From: Methanobrevibacter sp.
GTDB lineage: Archaea; Methanobacteriota; Methanobacteria; Methanobacteriales; Methanobacteriaceae
Direction: 5' to 3'
Length of the DNA: 64,000 nucleotides
Assembly: GCF_017468685.1 (NCBI RefSeq)
Contig: NZ_JAFUHT010000054.1
Coordinates: 1-64,000 of the forward strand
In this document: one piece after another, positions 13,969 through 63,075 of the stretch
Layout: each line of letters opens with the position of its first letter
How positions within the stretch are numbered: position 1 is the first letter of the stretch
Notes under the pieces: generated by a model
What the model saw: the letters and a program-made list of their open reading frames with translations, nothing else
Databases searched by the model: none
Told to the model about the DNA's origin: nothing
Made by a program: the position numbers and the translations under genes

Positions 13969-14769
13969 ATGGTAAAAAATATAATTAAAGAATCATTTCT
14001 AAAACCTTTTAGGGAGTATAAGACATTTATTTTTGTAATCGGATTAGCTGTCATATGTGATGTTATCTCTCATGAATTCTATTCTCTCCATATTGGGAGA
14101 TGGTCATTGCCTTTGATGATAGCCACATCATTGGTTATTCTCATGATTGTGGGAATCATGCTGAGCCATGTCAATCGTACCGTGTATAAAACGGATGTGG
14201 AATATTTTAATGTTAAAGATAATGTCATGGAAGGATTAAAGGAGTATATTATCAATCTATACTATGTGGTTTTGTCTTCGCTGCTTTCACTACTTTTTAC
14301 CATTCCTACAGGAGTTTACACCAAGTTAACTCATATTCAGGATTATGTCTTAAGCAATGACATAAGCACCACATTTCTGACTCTGCATGAATTGTCTGAA
14401 AGCATTCCAATCAATTTGCAAGTTGATTTGGTCCACAGCTTACAGATCAATTTGATTTTTGGTATGCTGATGGCTATAACATTGATTTCATTCGGATTCA
14501 TTGGAAGAATCATCCTGATTAAGACAGGCAGTCTAAAAGAGGCTTTGAACTTAAGAAATGTTTATAATATTATCAAAGAAATTGGTTACATGAGATATAT
14601 TCAGTTCATACTTGCTAGTTCTGTAATTATAATTGTCATGTTCAATATTTTGATTTCTTTGAAATTTTTCCTAAGTGATATATTGATTTCAGCAATATTT
14701 GAAGCTTTTATCTTGATATTTGCAACCAATGGATTTTATTTGATTGTTTCAAAAAGAAATTCTGATTGA
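13969..14769 (+). CDS. Polytopic membrane protein, possibly DUF4013-related
   Basis: 266 residues with about six membrane segments. AGGAG lies eight bases before the ATG. The overall layout (short N-terminus, helix pair, a segment with NVMEGLKEYIINLYYVV, further helix pairs) resembles the nearby DUF4013-like proteins, but sequence similarity by eye is low. Function unknown. Confidence 0.6.
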   Translation: MVKNIIKESFLKPFREYKTFIFVIGLAVICDVISHEFYSLHIGRWSLPLMIATSLVILMIVGIMLSHVNRTVYKTDVEYFNVKDNVMEGLKEYIINLYYVVLSSLLSLLFTIPTGVYTKLTHIQDYVLSNDISTTFLTLHELSESIPINLQVDLVHSLQINLIFGMLMAITLISFGFIGRIILIKTGSLKEALNLRNVYNIIKEIGYMRYIQFILASSVIIIVMFNILISLKFFLSDILISAIFEAFILIFATNGFYLIVSKRNSD

Positions 14770-14952
14770 TATTCATTCGACAGGTTATGTCGGATTGATA
14801 AATTTCAAAATTGATTTTTTCATAGTGTTTTGTTTAAACAGTGTCATGTTCACAAAATTGAAATCAGTGGATATTGCACAAACTTAATTAACATTCAAGT
14901 TCATATTTTATATTGAAAAAAGCATTAAACAACTGATGATTAAGTGATTATT

Positions 14953-15954
14953 ATGGAATTTCCAACTACAAGAATGAGAAGATTAAGAAAAAATCAAAAG
15001 ATTAGGGACATTGTTCGTGAAACTAAACTGTTAAAGGAAGACTTGATTTATCCGATTTACTTTAAGGAGGAACTTGAAGGCGATGAAAAGGAAGAGATTT
15101 CATCACTTCCAGGTGAATTCAGATACTCCTTGGATTCAGGTGTTGAGTTTGCAAAACAGCTTGAAGCTAAAGGATTAAAATCAATCATTGTATTTGGAAT
15201 ACCAAAAGAGGAAACCAAGGATGAAATTGCTTCACCTGATTACTCAGCAACAGGAATTGTTCAAAAGGCAATTAGAAGACTTAAAAAGGAAACAAATCTT
15301 GTAATTATCTCAGATGTATGCCTGTGCCAGTACACTTCCCATGGCCATTGCGGAATGATAAAAGAAAACGATGACACTGACGACGGAATTGAAATTCTAA
15401 ACGATGAATCTCTTCCATACATTGCAAAGGTTGCCTTGTCTCATGCTGAAGCCGGAGCTGACATCGTAGCGCCTTCCGACATGATGGATGGAAGAGTCGG
15501 TGCAATCAGACAGACTTTAGACGATAATGGATATGAAAACGTCATGATAATGTCATATTCAGCAAAATACGCATCAGCATTCTATGAGCCATTCAGGGTG
15601 GCTGCCTGCTCATCACCTCATGCAGGGGACAGAAAATCATATCAGATGGATCCTGGAAATGCCATTGAAGCAATCCGTGAATGCGAACTTGACGTGATTG
15701 AAGGGGCTGACTTTTTAATGGTCAAACCTGCACTCCCGTACCTTGATGTGGTCAGAATGGTCAGGGATGAGTTCATGCTTCCTTTGGTTGCATATAACGT
15801 AAGTGGAGAATATTCCATGATTATGGCTGCAATCGAAAAGGGATACTTGACTGAAAGGGCTATTCTTGAAGCATTACTTTCAATTAAAAGAGCTGGAGCA
15901 GATTTGATAATCACCAATTTTGCACCATACCTGCTTTTGAATGATGTGATATAA
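14953..15954 (+). CDS. hemB: Porphobilinogen synthase (delta-aminolevulinate dehydratase)
   Basis: About 333 residues. It joins two 5-aminolevulinate molecules into porphobilinogen in the cytoplasm, the second step to uroporphyrinogen III, needed here for F430, corrinoids and possibly siroheme. The metal-binding motif [11 protein letters not shown], Schiff-base Lys205 in [13 protein letters not shown] and Lys258 in [12 protein letters not shown] are all present. The GTG at 14944 belongs to the site GTGATT, so the ATG at 14953 is preferred. Its stop overlaps the next start by one base. hemD (35624) and cobA (43949) of the same pathway are elsewhere in this window. Confidence 0.95.
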
Positions 15955-16832
15955 TGGATGTAAATGAAATTGCAAAAATCGCTCAAATCGCTTCAGCATT
16001 GGAAGTGAGCGGATATCCAAAGCCGGGTAATGTTCACCGTACACGTGACTATGATGATATGGAATTTGAGGATTTCATCATAAGCGGAATAGTCATTGGA
16101 GATACCATACGTGAGGCATGCAGTGATGTGGATGTTGAAAACCCTCAATTGGGCAAATACATTCTGCAGGCTGTAGCTGAAACCGACAGATGGATTAAAA
16201 ACAACACTAACTTGGGAATTGTCATGATGACAACACCAATTGCCGTTGCAGCATCCATCAGCGATTCATTTGATGATATGAGAGAAAACATTAAATTATT
16301 GATGGCAAACACTTCAGTGGATGATGCATGCGACTTGTATGATGCAATCAACATTGCAGATGCCGGTGGAATGGGCGATCAGGATGAGTATGATGTTGCA
16401 AGCGACAATGCAAAACAGGAGTTAAGGGACAATAATCAGACCATGTATGATGTTTTGAAAATATCTGCTCCATGGGACATGCTTGCACGTGAAATGACCA
16501 GTGATATGCCTGCCGTGTTTGAAATAGGCTATCCGACTTATCATGAACTAAAAGAAGAGAAGTCTAAAAATGAAGCCTGTCTTTTGACATTTTTAACTAT
16601 TTTGTCACATGTTCCGGATACTTTGATTTCAAGAAAGTACGGGGATGATGAGGCTCTCAAAATATCTCTCATGACAAGGGATTTGCTTAAGATGAAAGAT
16701 TCTGCTGACTTTATAGATAGGGTTGCTGAATTTGACGATTATTTATTTAAGAATAAGTATAATCCTGGAACAACTGCAGATTTAACAGCTGCTTCTATTT
16801 TTGTAAGTTATTTGAAATCCAATTTCAAATAA
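15954..16832 (+). CDS. Triphosphoribosyl-dephospho-CoA synthase (CitG/MdcB) family protein
   Basis: 292 residues with the family opening ALEVSGYPKPGNVHRTRD, an acidic pair in DACDLYDAINIADAGGMG and a C-terminal NPGTTADLTAAS. Bacterial CitG and MdcB make the prosthetic-group precursor of citrate or malonate lyase from ATP and dephospho-CoA. No such lyase is seen here, and archaeal members probably do a related nucleotide-sugar transfer of unknown purpose. It overlaps hemB by one base, so the two are translationally coupled. Confidence 0.85.
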   Translation: MDVNEIAKIAQIASALEVSGYPKPGNVHRTRDYDDMEFEDFIISGIVIGDTIREACSDVDVENPQLGKYILQAVAETDRWIKNNTNLGIVMMTTPIAVAASISDSFDDMRENIKLLMANTSVDDACDLYDAINIADAGGMGDQDEYDVASDNAKQELRDNNQTMYDVLKISAPWDMLAREMTSDMPAVFEIGYPTYHELKEEKSKNEACLLTFLTILSHVPDTLISRKYGDDEALKISLMTRDLLKMKDSADFIDRVAEFDDYLFKNKYNPGTTADLTAASIFVSYLKSNFK

Positions 16833-55608: not shown

Positions 55609-56532
55609 ATGATAATCAATTCAGGTACAAGAACTGACATTCCGGCTTTTTTTCACAAATGGTTCTTGAATCGCATCAACGAAGGTTTTGTAATCTCTAA
55701 AAATCCTTATAACAATCAACTTTATAAATATAATTTCAATCCAAAAACAGTCGATGTGTTATGTTTCTGCTCGAAAAATCCAAAGCCGTTGGTAAAGCAT
55801 TTGGATGAACTGTCCGATTATAAACAGTTCTGGTTTGTGACAATCACGCCATATGATAAGGACATTGAAGTAAATGTTCCAAGCTACAAAAGAGTTATCA
55901 AAACATTCAAGGAATTGTCCGATAATCTGGGAGTCAACAGCGTATCCTGGCGATATGATCCGATTCTCATCAATGAAAAATACTCTCTGGATTATCATAT
56001 TGACAAGTTTGAGGAAATGGCTTCACAATTGCATGAATACACTTCAGACTGTACAATAAGTTTCATCGATTTGTACCAGAAGGTCTTGAGGAACTTTCCC
56101 GAAGCCCGTGAAGTCACAACTGAAGAGCGTTTGATTATTGGTGAAAATTTCTCAAAAATAGCTAATAAATATGATATTCAGATGAAAACATGTGTTGAGG
56201 GGACATTGCTTGACCAATTCGGCTTTGACTCAACAGGGTGCATGACCCAGCAGGTACTTGAAAAAGCTATTGGAAATAATTTGAAAGTGCCTAAAGGAAA
56301 ATACCATAATCGCGAATGCAACTGTTTAATGGGAAGGGATATTGGATTATACAATACTTGTCTTCATGGATGCAGATATTGCTATGCCAACAGTAACATG
56401 AAACTGGTTAAAAGAAATCAGAAATTGCATAATCCGGATTCGCCCTTGCTGATTGGTGAGGTTAAAGATAATGATGTTGTAAGAGAAGTTTGCGAACCCA
56501 GCTATATTGACACCCAACAGAAATTATTTTAA
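55609..56532 (+). CDS. DUF1848 family protein (intact copy at a recurrent insertion point)
   Basis: 307 residues. It starts INSGTRTDIPAFF and shares the DUF1848 blocks FCSKNPKPL, FWFVTITPYDKDIE, VSWRYDPILIN and a C-terminal Cys set ECNCLMG...CLHGCRYCYAN, reminiscent of radical SAM iron-sulfur motifs but at the far end. Function unknown. Its last 157 bases (56376-56532) recur three times downstream in incomplete form, always starting near this Cys motif. The first block (56376-56390) is identical to one at 58147-58161. This suggests that its 3' end is an insertion target. Confidence 0.88.
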   Translation: MIINSGTRTDIPAFFHKWFLNRINEGFVISKNPYNNQLYKYNFNPKTVDVLCFCSKNPKPLVKHLDELSDYKQFWFVTITPYDKDIEVNVPSYKRVIKTFKELSDNLGVNSVSWRYDPILINEKYSLDYHIDKFEEMASQLHEYTSDCTISFIDLYQKVLRNFPEAREVTTEERLIIGENFSKIANKYDIQMKTCVEGTLLDQFGFDSTGCMTQQVLEKAIGNNLKVPKGKYHNRECNCLMGRDIGLYNTCLHGCRYCYANSNMKLVKRNQKLHNPDSPLLIGEVKDNDVVREVCEPSYIDTQQKLF

Positions 56533-56638
56533 TTAATTTCATGAATCATTTTTGATAAAATCATTTTTTTAGAATCACTTTAAATAAACCTCTAAAATAT
56601 ATTGAATTCAATTTGAATTTATATCACAAATTTCTTGG

Positions 56639-56743
56639 TTTATTTTATATTTTGTATGTTATACTTTTGGTTTATTTTTGTTTTAGTAATTTTGTAAGTT
56701 ATATTTTTAATTTATTTTTATTTTAGTAATTTTGTAAGTTATA
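56639..56743 (+). repeat. Three tandem repeats of 40 bases
   Basis: Copies two (56671-56703) and three (56711-56743) are nearly identical, with shared TTTTAGTAATTTTGTAAGTT and a 40-base period. A first, more diverged copy lies at 56639-56663. They sit just before the TATA box (about 56751) and start of the ATPase gene. Confidence 0.65.
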
Positions 56744-56796
56744 ACTGACAAATTTATATATGATTAGAATCTAATATCTTATTAAGATGTGATTGC

Positions 56797-58017
56797 ATGA
56801 TTAAAAGAGAAGATTATCTTAAGGTTTTTTATAACTATTTGGACACGGATTTTATTAAAATTATTATTGGATTGCGTAGATGTGGAAAAACAACATTTTT
56901 AAAAAGTATTATTGAGGAACTAAAGGTTTTAGGTATTGCTGATGAGAATATAATTTACATATCATTTGAAAATGTGAAATATAGACATATTAAGACATCA
57001 AAAGAGTTGGATGAAGTTGTTTTAGATAAGGTTAAAGACATTGAGGGTAAGGTCTATTTATTGTTTGATGAAATTCAATTAGTTGATGAATGGGAGGAGT
57101 CAATTAATTCATATAGGGTTTCTTTTGATTGTGATATTTATGTTACCGGATCTAATTCAAAATTGTTCTCATCTGAACTTTCAACATTGGTTGCAGGAAG
57201 ATATGTTCATATAAACATTTATCCTTTTTCATTTAAAGAAATTTTAAAGTATCATAATGAAATTAACAATATTGAAATGGATAAAATTAAGATATATGAA
57301 TATTTCATGCAGTACATAGAATATGGTGGAATGCCGTCATTGCTTTCTTTAAAAGATGAAGATGGAAAAATCAATGCGCTTCTCGACATCTATGATTCCA
57401 TCATTATTAGTGATATACTTTCAAGACATGAAATCAGAAGAATTGACACATTTAAAAGATTCGTTTATTATATTATGAATTCCATTGGACAAACATTCTC
57501 TAAAAAAAGTATAGCAAATTTTTTAAAATCTGAAAGTAAAAGAACTTCAAGAGAAACCATCAATAATTTTACAAACTTCATTGTTGAATCACTATTTTGC
57601 CATAGGGTGTTACGTGAGGATATACTTGGAAAAAAACTCTTATCTACAAATGAAAAATACTATTTAACGGATCATGGATTTCATCAGGCATTGGTTGATG
57701 AAAATAATAAATGGTTACCTAGAATAATTGAAAACATTGTGTATATTGAACTTTTAAGAAGAGGATATTCAGTTAAAGTGGGTTGGGTTAAAAATAAGGA
57801 AGTAGATTTCATAGCTAAAAATAAGAATAATAAAATTTATATTCAGGTTGCTTATCTTTTAGCTTCTGATGAAACAATAGAACGGGAATTCACTCCATTA
57901 TTAAATATTCCTGATAAATATGATGCATATGTATTGAGTATGGATGAATTTAACATGTCTAGAGATGGAATAAAACATATGAACATAATTGACTTTTTAT
58001 TAGGTGATGAAATTTAA
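56797..58017 (+). CDS. AAA-family ATPase with DUF4143 domain
   Basis: 406 residues. The ATPase domain has Walker A GLRRCGKTTFLKS, Walker B YLLFDEIQLVDEWE and sensor region YVTGSNSKLFSSEL. The DUF4143 part ends with ENIVYIELLRRGYSVKVGWVKNKEVDFIAKN, which has a PD-(D/E)XK-like nuclease core. Such proteins are common on mobile islands, with uncertain function. It lies between the intact DUF1848 gene and its first displaced 3' end. Confidence 0.9.
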   Translation: MIKREDYLKVFYNYLDTDFIKIIIGLRRCGKTTFLKSIIEELKVLGIADENIIYISFENVKYRHIKTSKELDEVVLDKVKDIEGKVYLLFDEIQLVDEWEESINSYRVSFDCDIYVTGSNSKLFSSELSTLVAGRYVHINIYPFSFKEILKYHNEINNIEMDKIKIYEYFMQYIEYGGMPSLLSLKDEDGKINALLDIYDSIIISDILSRHEIRRIDTFKRFVYYIMNSIGQTFSKKSIANFLKSESKRTSRETINNFTNFIVESLFCHRVLREDILGKKLLSTNEKYYLTDHGFHQALVDENNKWLPRIIENIVYIELLRRGYSVKVGWVKNKEVDFIAKNKNNKIYIQVAYLLASDETIEREFTPLLNIPDKYDAYVLSMDEFNMSRDGIKHMNIIDFLLGDEI

Positions 58018-58146
58018 GAAAATGGTTATTTGGGACTGTCCACTGAAACAAATTTCTCTAAAAAATAGTGGATAATTTCATTACTTTTAGGCATTTTTTG
58101 ATCGTAATTTACGAAATAAGATTTCGATTTTTAGTAGATAATTTTT
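58018..58146. other. Right-end region of the first insert
   Basis: Contains TAGTGGATAATTT (58066-58078) and TAGTAGATAATTTT (58132-58145); the second ends two bases before the displaced DUF1848 end. A close copy, TAGTGGATTATTT (60122-60134), lies six bases before the second displaced end. A GGGACTGTCCACTG patch near 58032 resembles an insertion-sequence end, but no partner was found. Confidence 0.4.
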
Positions 58147-58303
58147 ATATTGCTATGCCAATGCCAACATGAAGCTGGTCAAAAAGAACCAAAAGTTGCA
58201 TAATCCAGATTCACCGTTATTGATTGGTGAGGTTAAAGAGAGGGATGTTGTAAAAGAAGTTAGTGAACCAAGCTATATTGACACACAAACTAAATTATTT
58301 TAA
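58147..58303 (+). pseudogene. Displaced 3' end of a DUF1848 gene (copy 1)
   Basis: 157 bases matching the last 157 of the intact DUF1848 gene without a gap, in frame to TAA, and translating to YCYANANMKLVKKN then QKLHNPDSPLLIGEVK, ending SYIDTQTKLF. The first 15 bases (ATATTGCTATGCCAA) are identical; beyond that most changes are third-position. The rest of the gene is missing. It shows a former real gene end, cut off at the same point as the other copies. Confidence 0.85.
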
Positions 58304-58494
58304 ATTTTAACCAATTAAAAGTTTAGTTTTAAATAAAAAATTATTTAAAGTTAATAAATATGGAGATTGGGATTCTTAATATTATTGTAAACATTTTAAT
58401 TTTTAAAGTTAATAAAAATCCCTCCAAAAATTTAATCATTGTGAAATCAAATAGTAAAATATGTTAAAATTAATGTGTTGGAGGATTAATAAAG
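58304..58494 (+). other. Upstream region of the MFS exporter gene
   Basis: AT-rich, no supported gene. A GGAGG site lies at the end (about 58481) before the ATG at 58495. No operator-like palindrome was found. Confidence 0.35.
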
Positions 58495-60012
58495 ATGAAT
58501 GAAAGGGTTAACGAAAATTCTTGGATTCCATTAATAGTTGTGGCTTGTGCTTCTTTTATTATAGTATTGGACTCTTTATTCATGAATGTTAGCATTTCTC
58601 ACGTTGTTAGTGATTTGAATACTGATGTTAGTACTATTCAAATGCTTGTTTCGTTTAATACTCTTATTACGGCTGCGTTGATACTGCTCAGTACCAAACT
58701 TCAGGATATAGTTGGTAAAAGGAAACTGTTTTTAATTGGTGCTGCACTTTTTGGTATCGGCATATTTACTGCAGTAATGAGTTCAAGTGTTATAATGTTT
58801 TTTGTCGGATGGTCGGCGATTAAAGGTGTTGCAGGGGCATTAATGCTACCTGCCATAGTTTCAATAATAAGCGGAACATATTCCGGCAAAATGCGTACAA
58901 TTGCTTTGGCAACTCTAGGGATAGTGGCAGGACTTGCAGATACTTTTGCTCCACTCCTTGGAGGAGTTATTACAACTTATTTCAGCTGGAGATATACTTT
59001 TGCATTTGAATTAATATTCATTTTATTTATTTTAGTAATGCAAAATAAAATACCTAATTTTAAACCTACTGAATCTAAAAACGATTTGGATATTGTTGGT
59101 GCCATAATTTCCAGTATAGGACTTGTTTTGCTTGTGCTTGGTATTTTGACTTTGACTAAGGATGTTACTACAAGTATTGTCGAGATGATTTTTGGATTAA
59201 TAGTTTTGGCAATCTTTGTATGGTATGAACTTAAAAGAAAAAGGTCAGGCAAGGTGCCATTGCTTGATGTTGAGTTATTCAGAGACAAAAATCTGCGTTT
59301 GGGTACATCTATCAAGTTATTATATAATATTATAATCTCTGGAACATTTTTTGTATTGGTTCTGTTTTTCCAAAGTGTATTGCAGTTAAATCCATTCGAT
59401 ACGGGTGTGGCTTCACTTCCGTTCACTGTGGCTCTGCTTATTTTTTCACTGTTCGCTCCAAAATTAATTGGAAAACTGAATCATAAGAAACTCATAGCAA
59501 TAGGATGTATAATATCTATTGTTGGATGTCTGATTTTAAGTTATCAATTTAGATTAAATATATCAATGATGGGATTAATTCCTGGACTGTTTTTACTTGG
59601 GGCAGGAATTGGTTTCATGCTGGCTTTAGGTTCGGATGTTGCATTATTCGATATTCCTGCTGAAAGCCAAAATAACGCATCTGGTATTCTTACAACTGGT
59701 GAGACATTAGGTTCATCAATGGGTACTGCAATTATTGGAATAATTCTGATTCTTGGAGTTATTGGAGGTATTAGTACTGCAGTCGATACCTATGCGCCTG
59801 CTTATTCAGGAGACGAGCAATTCCATCAGGAGGTCTATGATTACTTCCAAAAATTAGATACTTTAGAAGGACAAGACAGTGTTGTTGTAAATACTGCCGA
59901 TATAATTATTCAGAGTGCAATGGCCTCTGTAATGATGGCATTGGCCATAGTGTTTGGAGTTATTTTAATTCTAACGCTGAGGATAAAAGATAAAAATATT
60001 AAAAAACATTGA
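58495..60012 (+). CDS. MFS transporter of the DHA2 (EmrB/QacA) type
   Basis: 505 residues with 14 predicted membrane helices, the DHA2 count. It opens VVACASFIIVLDSLFMNVSISHVVSDLNTDVSTIQMLVSFN; motif A is a variant LQDIVGKRKLFLIGA, and motif C is GLADTFAPLLGGVITTYFSWR. It likely exports drugs or other compounds with protons. It is the cargo between displaced DUF1848 ends 1 and 2 and ends in a hairpin terminator. Confidence 0.9.
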   Translation: MNERVNENSWIPLIVVACASFIIVLDSLFMNVSISHVVSDLNTDVSTIQMLVSFNTLITAALILLSTKLQDIVGKRKLFLIGAALFGIGIFTAVMSSSVIMFFVGWSAIKGVAGALMLPAIVSIISGTYSGKMRTIALATLGIVAGLADTFAPLLGGVITTYFSWRYTFAFELIFILFILVMQNKIPNFKPTESKNDLDIVGAIISSIGLVLLVLGILTLTKDVTTSIVEMIFGLIVLAIFVWYELKRKRSGKVPLLDVELFRDKNLRLGTSIKLLYNIIISGTFFVLVLFFQSVLQLNPFDTGVASLPFTVALLIFSLFAPKLIGKLNHKKLIAIGCIISIVGCLILSYQFRLNISMMGLIPGLFLLGAGIGFMLALGSDVALFDIPAESQNNASGILTTGETLGSSMGTAIIGIILILGVIGGISTAVDTYAPAYSGDEQFHQEVYDYFQKLDTLEGQDSVVVNTADIIIQSAMASVMMALAIVFGVILILTLRIKDKNIKKH

Positions 60013-60040
60013 GAGTTTATCTCTCACCTACTTTTTTTTT
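60010..60040 (+). terminator. Hairpin with T run on the stop codon of the MFS gene
   Basis: TGAGAG (60010-60015), loop TTTAT and CTCTCA (60021-60026), then nine T's from 60032. The TGA stop (60010-60012) is the start of the stem. Confidence 0.65.
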
Positions 60041-60137
60041 AATGGTTTGAGTGTTGGCAGAAATTATTGAGTTTTATTTTATTCCTTTTTTTCGTAATGT
60101 TGGAGCTAATTTTGCTTAATGTAGTGGATTATTTGAT

Positions 60138-60290
60138 GGTATTGTGCTAAACAGTAACATGAATCATGTGAAAAGAATCAGAAGTTGCATAATTTGGATT
60201 CACCGTTATTGATGGTGAAGTTAAAGATGTGATGTTGTAAAGGAAATTAGAGAACCAAACTATTTTGATTCTCAAACTAGGTTGTTCTAG
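60138..60290 (+). pseudogene. Displaced 3' end of a DUF1848 gene (copy 2, decayed)
   Basis: About 153 bases align with the end of the intact gene, beginning at the same boundary (ATTG-TGCTAAACAGTAACATGAA against ATATTGCTATGCCAACAGTAACATGAA) and ending at TAG 60288-60290. Several single-base deletions break the frame. It is more decayed than copy 1. Confidence 0.75.
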
Positions 60291-60401
60291 AGCATAATAT
60301 GTTCTTTTTATTTATCTATTAACTTTGTGATAGTATGCCGTTCAGTATTCAACGAAAAAAACATAATCTCCATATCTAATGATCAACATAAATTCAAGAA
60401 A

Positions 60402-60412
60402 ATATGGAGATT
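60402..60412. repeat. Inverted repeat partner (11 bases) of 60365-60375
   Basis: AATCTCCATAT (60365-60375) and ATATGGAGATT (60402-60412) are perfect 11-base arms around 26 bases, between the second displaced DUF1848 end and a small broken gene. Its role is unknown. Confidence 0.45.
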
Positions 60413-60471
60413 TCTATCGTATCATCTTCATCATAAACTTTAATCTATTTATCTGATTTTAATGGATTTTT

Positions 60472-60632
60472 TTATGTTGGATATTTTTTATACAATTCCA
60501 TTGAAGGAATGAATAGGCCACATGTCACACAAAGTTCCTTATAATCAAAATCGTCATGTTCATTTGGATTTTGAGTATAACTCTTCCAAAATTACTTTCG
60601 CAATCCCTAGCTATTGCATGTAATTCTCTCAT
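60472..60632 (-). pseudogene. Small broken gene with a CxxC motif
   Basis: Starting at ATG 60632 the minus strand reads MRELHAIARDCESNFGRVILK, then after one frameshift PNEHDDFDYKELCVTCGLF and a stop at 60472. The two parts together give a protein of about 53 residues; 161 bases are not a multiple of three. Not recognised. It lies next to the ThiF-like gene, on the same strand, and may once have been its downstream partner. Confidence 0.35.
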
Positions 60633-60649
60633 ATTAATGACTAAAACAA

Positions 60650-61315
60650 TTATTTGTTGCTATTATCGTTTATATCTCTTAATAGTTTCAATGCATTCAT
60701 TGTAATGATTTTTGCAACTTCATCTAAAGTATATGGAGTCACTGGCTCGTTATCTCTAATCAATTTATTTGTTGTTAAGATTAAATGATTTTCAGTTATG
60801 CCTTGTGCTCTTAGTTCTTCAATGGCAGGGTTGTTGTTGTCGTATTCTGAAATATCTTTAAATTCGATATTTTCATCACCGAATCCGAATATTCCTGCGG
60901 TTCCAATAGTTTTTGCTCCTCTTTGATGTGCATGTTTAATTATCTCTGCAGCAGTAGGGATGGTATTTCCTCCTGCAAGGATTAAAATCACTATGTCTCC
61001 TTGAACCAAGTCAATATTTTCTTTGGTTATGTATTCGGTATGGCTTTCGATGTTTCTAAACTCTTCGGGATGTGTGCAGATTCTTTTTAAAAAATCGGTT
61101 TTATATTCTCCAATTTCCGCTCCTAAAAGTGTGAAAATCACGTCACCTCCTGAGACTTCTTGTCCGTCAAAAGCGCCAATAATCTTCGGTCCACCTCTAT
61201 GGGCTTGCATTAAGTTAATACCAATTCGCAATCCTAATCTTCCAACACCAATTAAATCAATTCTTCCTTTTGGAATTCTTGAGTCTTCAATCTTTTGAAT
61301 TTTGTCTTCAGTCAT
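60650..61315 (-). CDS. ThiF/UBA-like Rossmann-fold protein
   Basis: About 221 residues. The N-terminal Rossmann stretch DLIGVGRLGLRIGINLMQAHRGG is followed by KIIGAFDGQEVSGGDVIFTLLGAEIGEYKTDFLKRI, in the order found in ThiF/MoeB-like adenylating proteins, and ILILAGGNTIPTAAEIIKHAHQRGAKTIGTAGIFGFG. No zinc Cys pairs or catalytic Cys of E1 enzymes are seen, so it may bind nucleotide without activating a protein. The GTG at 61324 belongs to GGTGAT; ATG 61315 is the start. Confidence 0.65.
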   Translation of the reverse strand: MTEDKIQKIEDSRIPKGRIDLIGVGRLGLRIGINLMQAHRGGPKIIGAFDGQEVSGGDVIFTLLGAEIGEYKTDFLKRICTHPEEFRNIESHTEYITKENIDLVQGDIVILILAGGNTIPTAAEIIKHAHQRGAKTIGTAGIFGFGDENIEFKDISEYDNNNPAIEELRAQGITENHLILTTNKLIRDNEPVTPYTLDEVAKIITMNALKLLRDINDNSNK

Positions 61316-61324
61316 GTTTATCAC

Positions 61325-62036
61325 CTATTTGTAATACTTTATTTTAATTTGGTATTATTATATAACTATTGTTATATAAATTTTTCTATATCTCTTTTAA
61401 TCAATGACGTCTGTAAAATGAGTATTACATTGGAAAACATTTGCTCCAAACAAAAAAACAGAATTGAAAACCTAGTTCAAAAAACATTGACTCAATCCGG
61501 AAAAAGAACATTCAATATCAAACTAGTTGTTTTATAATGAATGTATTGCAAAGATTTGATTTTGAATCAATCGAAAGGCCAATTTTTTAAATCAACAGAG
61601 TTTTGAAAGAATCTTATTATGGGAATTCTGATTAATTTTAGGACAAGTTTGCTGAACAATCATGTTGGGCTGTATAACATCAAGCACAGCTATTTAGGAG
61701 AAGATAAAAGAAAGCCTAGATTTGATAGAATAAATACTTGCCTTGATCTTTTTGATGCATTTACTCCTGTAATTAAAGGTGCAACAATATTCTGGCACGA
61801 TGTATACACAAAAAAATTAATGTATGAAGTGTAATTTCAGTAATAAAAAGCAGATTAAATGGAATTAACTTCAGTAGGAGTACACAATTGTATAATAAAG
61901 AAACAAAACTTAAAAATGTATTATACAACAGTTATGGTGCCATACATGTATTTTCAGGAGATGGCTTTTACAATGTTGGAAAACAAATTCTCTCATGAAC
62001 AGAAAAACTTATTTTTCTCCTTTAATATGGAAAAGG
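61325..62036. other. Gene debris between displaced ends 2 and 3
   Basis: Short frames at 61418-61537 (39 codons, SITLENICSKQKNRIENLV...) and 61619-61834 (71 codons, PRFDRINTCLDLFDAFTPVIKGATIFWHD) look like coding remains, as does a frame near 61884-62000 on the plus strand. None has a convincing start with a ribosome-binding site. They appear to be fragments of lost genes. Confidence 0.35.
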
Positions 62037-62236
62037 TCACGGTTCATATAGTGGAACCGTATTTTTTGTAAGTTCTGCACTTATCTTTGACAGTTCGCTG
62101 ATGTCATCATCCATTGCGTTTTCAATCCAGCAGATTGTTTTTCAAAAAGAACTCTATGTATTTATTGGAGGCTATTTGATTTATTCCAATCCATTTTTTA
62201 TTTTTCTTGTTAAGTTCACTGATAGATAATTGACAT
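62037..62236 (-). pseudogene. Broken small gene (two frameshifts)
   Basis: On the minus strand from ATG 62236 the codons read MSIIY, then SELNKKNKKWIGINQIASNK with YIEFFLK, then TICWIENAMDDDISELSKIS, ending KNTVPLYEP and TGA at 62037-62039. Two frameshifts are needed. A hairpin (62039-62060) with a T run covers its end. No family recognised. Confidence 0.35.
62039..62068. terminator. Hairpin with T run
   Basis: ACGGTTC (62039-62045), eight bases, GAACCGT (62054-62060), then ATTTTTT. Typical terminator form, read on the plus strand; it would end a message from the debris region. Confidence 0.45.
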
Positions 62237-62396
62237 AAAAAATAAATTATAACTTGGATAATAATTTATTTATTCTATTATTAACAGATTAGAATATGAT
62301 AACATAAAAATTTAAATTAGTTTTTTTTTGATACAAAATTAATTCAAACATTATTTCAGATAAATATTTGATAATGATATTTTAAACATTAAAAAA
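62237..62396. other. AT-rich spacer
   Basis: Nothing coding seen. TATA-like stretches near 62270-62330 could serve the small Cys-rich gene. Confidence 0.3.
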
Positions 62397-62414
62397 ATGG
62401 AGGATTTGGATTTT

Positions 62415-62669
62415 ATGAATGATATAATATTTAACGACTGTGAATTCCGTTATATTGATGATAACGATGAATTAAGCTGTAAAAATAAACATGGTATGGA
62501 CATTGGTTGTGATAACTGTCAGGAAAATATTCATTTAAACTGTGATAATTTCAATCCTAAAAAGGATTTCTGCTTAAAATTCTTTAGAGGTAACATAAGT
62601 GAGTTAAAAGAATGTCAGGAAAAAACTGTATTTAATGACACTGACTTAAGCCGTAAATGGTCAAATTAA
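62415..62669 (+). CDS. Small Cys-rich protein
   Basis: About 84 residues from ATG 62415, preceded by GGAGG 11 bases upstream; a second ATG at 62397 would add six residues. It has seven Cys, including CDNC and CKNKHGMDIGC spacing, typical of a small zinc-binding protein. Family not recognised. Last intact gene before displaced end 3. Confidence 0.6.
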   Translation: MNDIIFNDCEFRYIDDNDELSCKNKHGMDIGCDNCQENIHLNCDNFNPKKDFCLKFFRGNISELKECQEKTVFNDTDLSRKWSN

Positions 62670-62934
62670 CCATAATATAAAAGGATTGTTTAATCTTGGA
62701 TAAACTTGATATTATCTATTTAAAAAACATTTAGAGAATTTTTTATTAGAAAACTTTTAAAAATTATAGGAATGTAGTACAAAGAGTTAATGTGGATAAA
62801 TGGTATTCCACATAACACTTTAGATTTATTATCCTCTTTATATATTTTTAATATTTCTTGCCAAGAGTTAGTGTCTGCTTTAAATCAGTAATTTAAATCC
62901 AATCAAGATTATCTTTGGGGTCTTATCCATTTTC

Positions 62935-63075
62935 ATAGTATGCCAATACTAATATGAAAATGGTCAAACGGAATCAGAATTGCATGATCCTGATTGGCGG
63001 TTGTTGATTGGTGAAGTTAAAGATGATGATTTTGTTAAAGAAATCTCAGAACACAGTTTCATTTATAATAAATAG
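62935..63075 (+). pseudogene. Displaced 3' end of a DUF1848 gene (copy 3, diverged)
   Basis: About 140 bases aligning with the intact gene from TATGCCAA on: YANTNMKMVKRNQ, one base lost, then LHDPDWRLLIGEVKDDDFVKEISEHSFIYNK and TAG (63073-63075). The ending differs from the other copies (FIYNK instead of SYIDTQ.KLF), so it came from another version of the gene. It begins within a few bases of the same boundary as copies 1 and 2. Confidence 0.75.

Follow-up and report, generated by a model that had tools for sequence, protein, structure and literature searches.

A probable array of small integrative cassettes that renew the 3′ end of a DUF1848 gene in Methanobrevibacter

Introduction

In Escherichia coli, phage 21 and the element e14 integrate inside the coding gene icd, bring a 3′ end for this gene with them and leave the displaced ends downstream. 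In staphylococci, the end of orfX (rlmH) harbours tandem composite arrays of staphylococcal cassette chromosome (SCC) elements, in which cargo elements lacking a recombinase are moved in trans. Here we describe a locus with features of both, located in a 64,000-nucleotide stretch of Methanobrevibacter sp. (assembly GCF_017468685.1, contig NZ_JAFUHT010000054.1, positions 1 to 64,000; hereafter the window), where an intact DUF1848 gene is followed by three displaced copies of its own 3′ end. In our view, this array has very likely arisen through site-specific stacking of small, non-autonomous integrative cassettes at a core of ~10 bp (TATGCCAA) in the DUF1848 gene. Each cassette would comprise the last ~150 bp of the DUF1848 gene (the tail), one to four cargo genes and a right end (RE) of ~110 bp; in the circular cassette, the site would read RE-core-tail. 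Crossover with the chromosomal core would allow the cassette tail to complete the gene, place the cargo next to it and push the RE and the old tail to the right: Repeated insertion would yield an array in which the newest cassette adjoins the gene and the oldest and most decayed one lies at the right. The enzyme would likely be an archaeal tyrosine integrase acting in trans, whose gene adjoins the same RE on a larger, satellite-like element that carries a terminase and uses the same core.

As for the icd elements, the 3′ end is supplied by the insert, the old end is displaced and the crossover occurs at a short core on the left edge. Here, however, the inserts are numerous small cassettes that lack integrase and virion genes, form stacks and are shared and shuffled between species, a second platform and secondary sites are used too, and the candidate recombinase, which in the icd type is element-borne, is found beside the RE on larger elements and in none of the cassettes. 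SCC elements share the tandem arrays at one gene end and the cargo without its own recombinase, but use serine recombinases, which are nearly absent here (2/67 genomes), and a short terminal site. Integrons and clusters of attC sites lacking integron integrases (CALINs; PMC9668308) likewise form same-direction arrays of mobile cassettes, whose cargo lacks a recombinase, moves in trans and is shuffled between species; in contrast, the present system is devoid of IntI, its site consists of a gene 3′ end and the RE, and its cassettes restore the target gene. The larger elements resemble P4-like satellites and phage-inducible chromosomal islands in their terminase large subunit, integrase and defence genes, with no capsid gene recognised among the open reading frames (ORFs) scanned, but are archaeal and have small cassette followers of their own. 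With the archaeal pNOB8-/SSV-type integrases (PMC8371274) they have a tyrosine recombinase with a weak Phage_integr_3 match in common; while an integrase gene of the SSV type is split by the integration that it brings about, the gene here stays whole on one side, beside the RE. In Methanobrevibacter smithii, metabolic genes are excised as a 2.9-kb circle that encodes no recombinase, through an as yet unexplained mechanism (PMC12134362). In the literature outside subscription journals we found neither an earlier description of such a system nor any mention of DUF1848, and the papers on archaeal integrons and proviruses available there describe none.

On balance, we lean towards regarding the locus as an integron-like gene-capture platform of the Methanobacteriaceae with an independent origin, in which a satellite-type integrase would act in trans on a site that includes a host-gene 3′ end, each capture mending the gene and stockpiling defence or efflux cargo. 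Such a system would unite the icd trick with the integron array, and it is testable, as a candidate integrase and a core of ~10 bp can be named. Cassettes of gut methanogens, many with candidate antiviral or efflux genes, are exchanged among loci and species in a way that resembles bacterial integron cassettes, providing a natural exchange route for defence, efflux and metabolic genes among ruminant methane-making archaea.

Results and Discussion

Displaced ends of the DUF1848 gene

The features on which the argument is built are the following:

55609–56532, + strand: DUF1848 gene A, intact, the primary insertion target (PF08902, 320.7 bits)
56377–56391, + strand: attB-like core, TATTGCTATGCCAAC (in pairs from different species, markers segregate at tail positions 6 and 9)
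56385–56532, + strand: tail 0, the cassette-borne 3′ end that finishes gene A (tail decoupled from body in 25 gene-A copies)
58042–58147, + strand: cassette 1 RE, containing two AAAGTAGTAGATAATT-type repeats at 58062–58077 and ~58131–58144 (R1 model, alignment A1)
58148–58303, + strand: displaced tail 1, reading frame open up to the stop codon (blast and tail model)
60138–60290, + strand: displaced tail 2, frameshifted and decayed (tail model, 98 bits)
62938–63075, + strand: displaced tail 3, decayed, the oldest (tail model, 94 bits)

Gene A succeeds an HMG-CoA synthase-like gene and a thiolase gene, as it does in relatives, and is intact because cassette 1 provides its last ~150 bp. An earlier note on this sequence had claimed that the last ~157 bases of the gene recur three times downstream, and the blast matches bear this out: Tail 1 aligns gaplessly (58147–58303, 83% over 157 bp, E 6.7e-41), tail 2 with indels (60150–60290, E 7.7e-23, the similarity reaching back to ~60137 if an indel is allowed), and tail 3 with an indel (62938–63075, E 1e-16, local blastn). 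The common left boundary asserted in the same note holds as well, as the left limits agree within a few bases of TATTGCTATGCC (56377–56388). This agreement is not due to chance, since the same limit recurs across the genus, where the left limits cluster at query positions 7–14 in a DNA search. The core shares bases with the codons for CLHGCRYC, a CxxxCxxC motif in the DUF1848 protein (56360–56383), and the insertion point therefore adjoins a likely metal-binding site.

Beyond what the earlier note had covered, the window contains the RE at 58042–58147, and the same genome carries four further tails in an array on a second contig (C14) and one on a third (C4). The tail-MFS-tail unit of C14 is 83% identical to window positions 58121–60271 over 2179 bp. 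The R1 model of the RE matches at 58042–58167 (E 5e-24). Generally, the RE precedes displaced tails, spans ~110 bp and contains two inverted repeats as well as two copies of AAAGTAGTAGATAATTT, usually 67–68 bp apart, the second of which stops a few bases before the tail. In the inverted repeats, 80% of cells are paired compared to 37–66% when the repeats are slid, and covariation lies mostly within the range of shuffles. Because of this scarce covariation we read them as possible protein sites or terminators. RNAalifold predicted no structure for the RE, and a folded attC-like site, for which hand-made hairpins likewise gave little covariation, is not claimed.

Distribution across the genus and family

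The DNA search detected the tail in 46 of the 67 genomes of the genus, with up to 11 copies per genome and often in same-strand runs. From the fetched loci, 170 copies in 42 genomes were read: 88 follow an RE, 25 end an intact gene A and 16 follow a second platform, termed LF. Named records with an RE belong to Methanobrevibacter, are mostly ruminant-derived and include M. millerae and M. thaueri. The RE is also present in two other genera of the family, in one case in a single-contig genome of 2,937,203 bp; one extra match, in a bacterium, is probably a chance hit. An exact pattern search of viral contigs yielded no RE.

Cassettes are shuffled, mostly near one crossover point

For a comparative analysis, copies were grouped by the 60 bp on their left or by their right-hand cargo, and groups with more than one member were counted. 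Fifteen of 16 left-sequence groups are joined to 2–11 different right-hand sequences, and, conversely, 16 of 17 cargo groups have 2–10 different left neighbours. For instance, tail and cargo are 97–100% identical in three genomes (G041, G063, G010) with unrelated left sides, whereas two others (G023, G064) have an identical RE, yet tails that are only 82% alike. The position of the switch can be narrowed down further: Pairs with the same left side often show their first difference at tail position 9 or 16, and in the cleanest pairs with the same right side differences are confined to positions 1–6. The switch therefore lies within TTG[CT]TA[CT]GCC, which corresponds to 56377–56388 in the window. 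At the junctions, the crossover falls inside tail positions 1–9, usually 6–9; in the window core, it lies mostly between 56382 and 56385.

The histories of gene body and tail differ accordingly. Across the 25 gene-A copies, the identity of the neighbouring thiolase correlates with that of the body (r = 0.78), while body and tail correlate poorly (r = 0.20, with 29 of 300 permutations as high). From the mosaic junctions, the crossover site and the decoupling of body and tail it follows that each tail is part of the cassette to the right of it. The idea, put forward in the earlier note, that elements inserted serially at one point and that each supplied a new 3′ end as at icd is thus supported by the comparison across species: Tails travel with the right-hand cassette, the crossover lies within a few bases of one point, and body and tail have separate histories. 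This picture is refined in that the cassettes are small, lack an integrase, are common to several species and also occupy the second platform and secondary sites. A strain in which the gene's stop codon is followed directly by sequence like that from 63076 onward, for which the note had suggested looking, was not among the loci read.

Many of the displaced tails are still readable. No stop interrupts codons 2–45 in 92 of 129, and in these stop-free tails the differences by codon position (0.15/0.13/0.36) resemble those in gene-A tails (0.13/0.11/0.36). The third-position bias together with the open frames indicates that displaced tails functioned as gene ends until fairly recently. Selection on the tail for as long as its cassette adjoins the gene would fit this pattern, and the neutrality of an insertion that restores its target may be the reason why tails are kept.

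Secondary sites and the second platform

Insertion is not restricted to gene A. In one genome (G063), an array splits a small ORF of family cl15, with GAATACCGTTA followed by CGCCAAC at the left junction and TATTGTTAT followed by CTTGATG at the right one; the ORF is uninterrupted in the window (62397–62669), in G004 and in G010. GTTAT is all that this target and the core have in common, an observation that speaks against homologous recombination.

The second platform, LF, resembles the first part of a surface-protein gene that has decayed. It is a leader of ~320 bp to which a tail is joined, as at L010:4070–4390 (contig C4 of the same genome as the window) and in relatives; its context varies, and a genome can hold several copies. 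The first ~150 bp of the leader are more widespread than the whole. Tracing the origin of the decayed leader gave no result.

A larger element and its integrase

A divergently oriented ORF for a tyrosine integrase adjoins the RE in six genomes (G063, G010, G031, G059, G043 and, as a remnant, G004). The protein has 384 amino acids in G063, matches PF00589 (30.5 bits), a PHROG family (1.3e-12) and weakly Phage_integr_3, and, as read from its sequence, possesses the R, K, HxxR and Y residues. Within the matched parts, identity to the query is 93–100% for members of this clade, with the exception of the decayed copy in G043 (51–79%, in pieces); for the clade as a whole, most matched parts fall between 77 and 100%. 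A member in G041 is cut by the contig end. Among the matches listed, a comparison of coordinates placed no other integrase, of less than 70% identity, within 1.5 kb of an RE.

The extent of such an element is seen in G031, where an insert of 21.5 kb splits mrtB at the core also used in the DUF1848 gene: The 3′ part of mrtB follows the RE, and 21.5 kb to the left of the RE the 5′ part is joined to the core and the left end, the two halves matching MCR_beta 1–81 (left) and 80–249 (right). A pattern search for an uninterrupted mrtB in G007 matched an Ig-like gene. The G031 element encodes a DUF1848 paralogue, type III restriction, the candidates PDC-S31 and PDC-S60, a terminase large subunit and a PIN gene, and it ends with the integrase; no capsid family was found among the larger ORFs, to which the scan was confined. 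In 11 species the DUF1848 gene is broken, always at the same base, by the left end of the element (TATGCCAATAGT..AAATTATCTACTACTTTTCTCTCACTAC), and in one species this left end interrupts LF, so that, together with mrtB, element ends are located in 11 DUF1848 genes and one mrtB gene. A DUF1848 paralogue, B, begins ~210–250 bp past the left end (L209:3282–4250 and further species) and is 86–95% conserved between species, as if replacing the gene that the element interrupts. Large elements thus break the gene but bring a paralogue, whereas small cassettes mend it.

Weighing the alternatives

The source of the fragments could be sought in full-length tandem duplicates of the DUF1848 gene, of which they would be remnants, and in some genomes a second full-length gene indeed lies beside a truncated one. 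This second gene, however, belongs to the inserted element; the full-length paralogues beside truncated copies (14 species) are only ~40% identical and score 62–75 bits with the tail model, compared to ~150 for cassette tails, and are therefore not the source of the pieces. Moreover, all fragments start at one point, most follow an RE, and the junctions are mosaic across species. Neither non-coinciding boundaries nor full-length tandem source genes, either of which the earlier note had named as grounds to abandon its view, were found, and we give decay of duplicates next to no credence. Homologous recombination between tails of ~150 bp, without a dedicated recombinase, has a slim chance of accounting for the shuffling: Tails are 75–90% alike and some junctions, here called class 2, break within the tail, but most switch at its left edge within a few bases, and insertions occur at targets with only 5–11 bp in common with the core (cl15 ORF, mrtB). 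A true integron or CALIN, with IntI acting on folded attC sites, would explain the one-direction arrays of gene cassettes, the adaptive cargo and the conserved repeats with inverted repeats, and archaeal integrons have been reported (PMC9668308). We nevertheless judge it highly improbable, as no integrase in the 67 genomes exceeds the IntI cut-off (TIGR02249), the paired-column test revealed no convincing covariation and the site is the end of a protein-coding gene.

As to the enzyme, the RE-linked integrase is the best candidate mover, with the chromosomal XerA recombinase as its rival. A XerA-like gene of ~365 codons occurs in nearly all genomes, including those that have arrays and no RE-linked integrase, and XerA might move cassettes as it does for Xer-exploiting elements; given that a different integrase adjoins the RE in six genomes, we consider this unlikely. 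Further movers were rejected: IntI for the reason given above, serine recombinases (PF00239) and HUH Y1 (IS200/605-like) transposases (PF01797) due to their presence in only 2 and 11 of 67 genomes, respectively, and 330-residue SAM_4 integrases as neither RE nor core adjoins them. The latter tyrosine recombinases (L059:10809–11795 in G006; contig C94 in the genome of the window) lie in some genomes beside or joined with hsdS-like sequence and are thus probably type I restriction specificity invertases.

Several points weigh against an array of site-specifically inserted cassettes served by the RE-linked integrase. Class 2 junctions, at which the cargo is the same and the tail differs along its first ~110–140 bp, do not arise from a core crossover alone and therefore require that gene conversion or homologous recombination act as well. 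Circular forms were not observed; circular intermediates, catalysis by the RE-linked integrase and a means of transfer from cell to cell are steps that we infer. The integrases of the genome under study are at most 54% identical to the RE-associated one and include no member of its clade, so the link between integrase and RE is one of adjacency in other species; the arrays of this genome may be silent or served by visiting elements. Finally, many genomes are draft metagenome-assembled genomes with contigs ending at these repeats, and misjoins may mimic some individual junctions. The finished single-contig genomes G004 and G085 show the same arrays.

Cargo of the window and of related arrays

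To the right of gene A, the window is occupied by:

56533–58147, + strand: cassette 1, consisting of a spacer, the DUF4143 ATPase and the RE (90–93% identical copies in G004, G034, G005 and G087)
56797–58017, + strand: AAA_14/DUF4143 ATPase, candidate phage-defence gene PDC-S01 (Pfam; PADLOC E 2.9e-143)
58304–60137, + strand: cassette 2, consisting of an MFS exporter gene (58495–60012) and a decayed RE at ~60118–60137 (MFS cassettes elsewhere)
60291–62937, no strand assigned: segment 3, with a 224-residue ORF (60650–61324, − strand), a fragment of ORF family cl11 and a 90-residue cl15 ORF (ORF scan)
62397–62669, + strand: cl15 ORF in intact form, belonging to the integrase-bearing element and representing an uninterrupted secondary site, GAATTCCGTTATATTGATG (compared with G063, where it is split by an array)

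G087, which carries a copy of cassette 1, is the genome of another genus, and copies of cassette 2 with 87–90% identity are found in more than 10 other genomes in several contexts. No RE was found in segment 3 (60291–62937). The DUF4143 ATPase and the MFS gene listed as cargo in the earlier note are confirmed, while its name "ThiF-like" for a third gene is unsupported because the 224-residue ORF (60650–61324) has no Pfam match.

Throughout the arrays, AAA_14/DUF4143, the PADLOC candidate PDC-S01, is the commonest ORF family near tails: 71 of its 78 members, from 37 genomes, lie within 3 kb of a tail. Other cargo includes MFS, ABC and MATE exporters, HxlR and MarR regulators, PdxS/PdxT, surface Ig proteins, RhuM, an FMN reductase and TauE. 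The defence function is a candidate one, assigned through the database label. Group II intron reverse transcriptases lie near tails in two genomes (L010:136–1650; L045:7524–9056 and 14713–16245). The region of the 224-residue ORF (60427–61308) has a 73% similar stretch at ~69.8–70.7 kb of the same contig, on the opposite strand.

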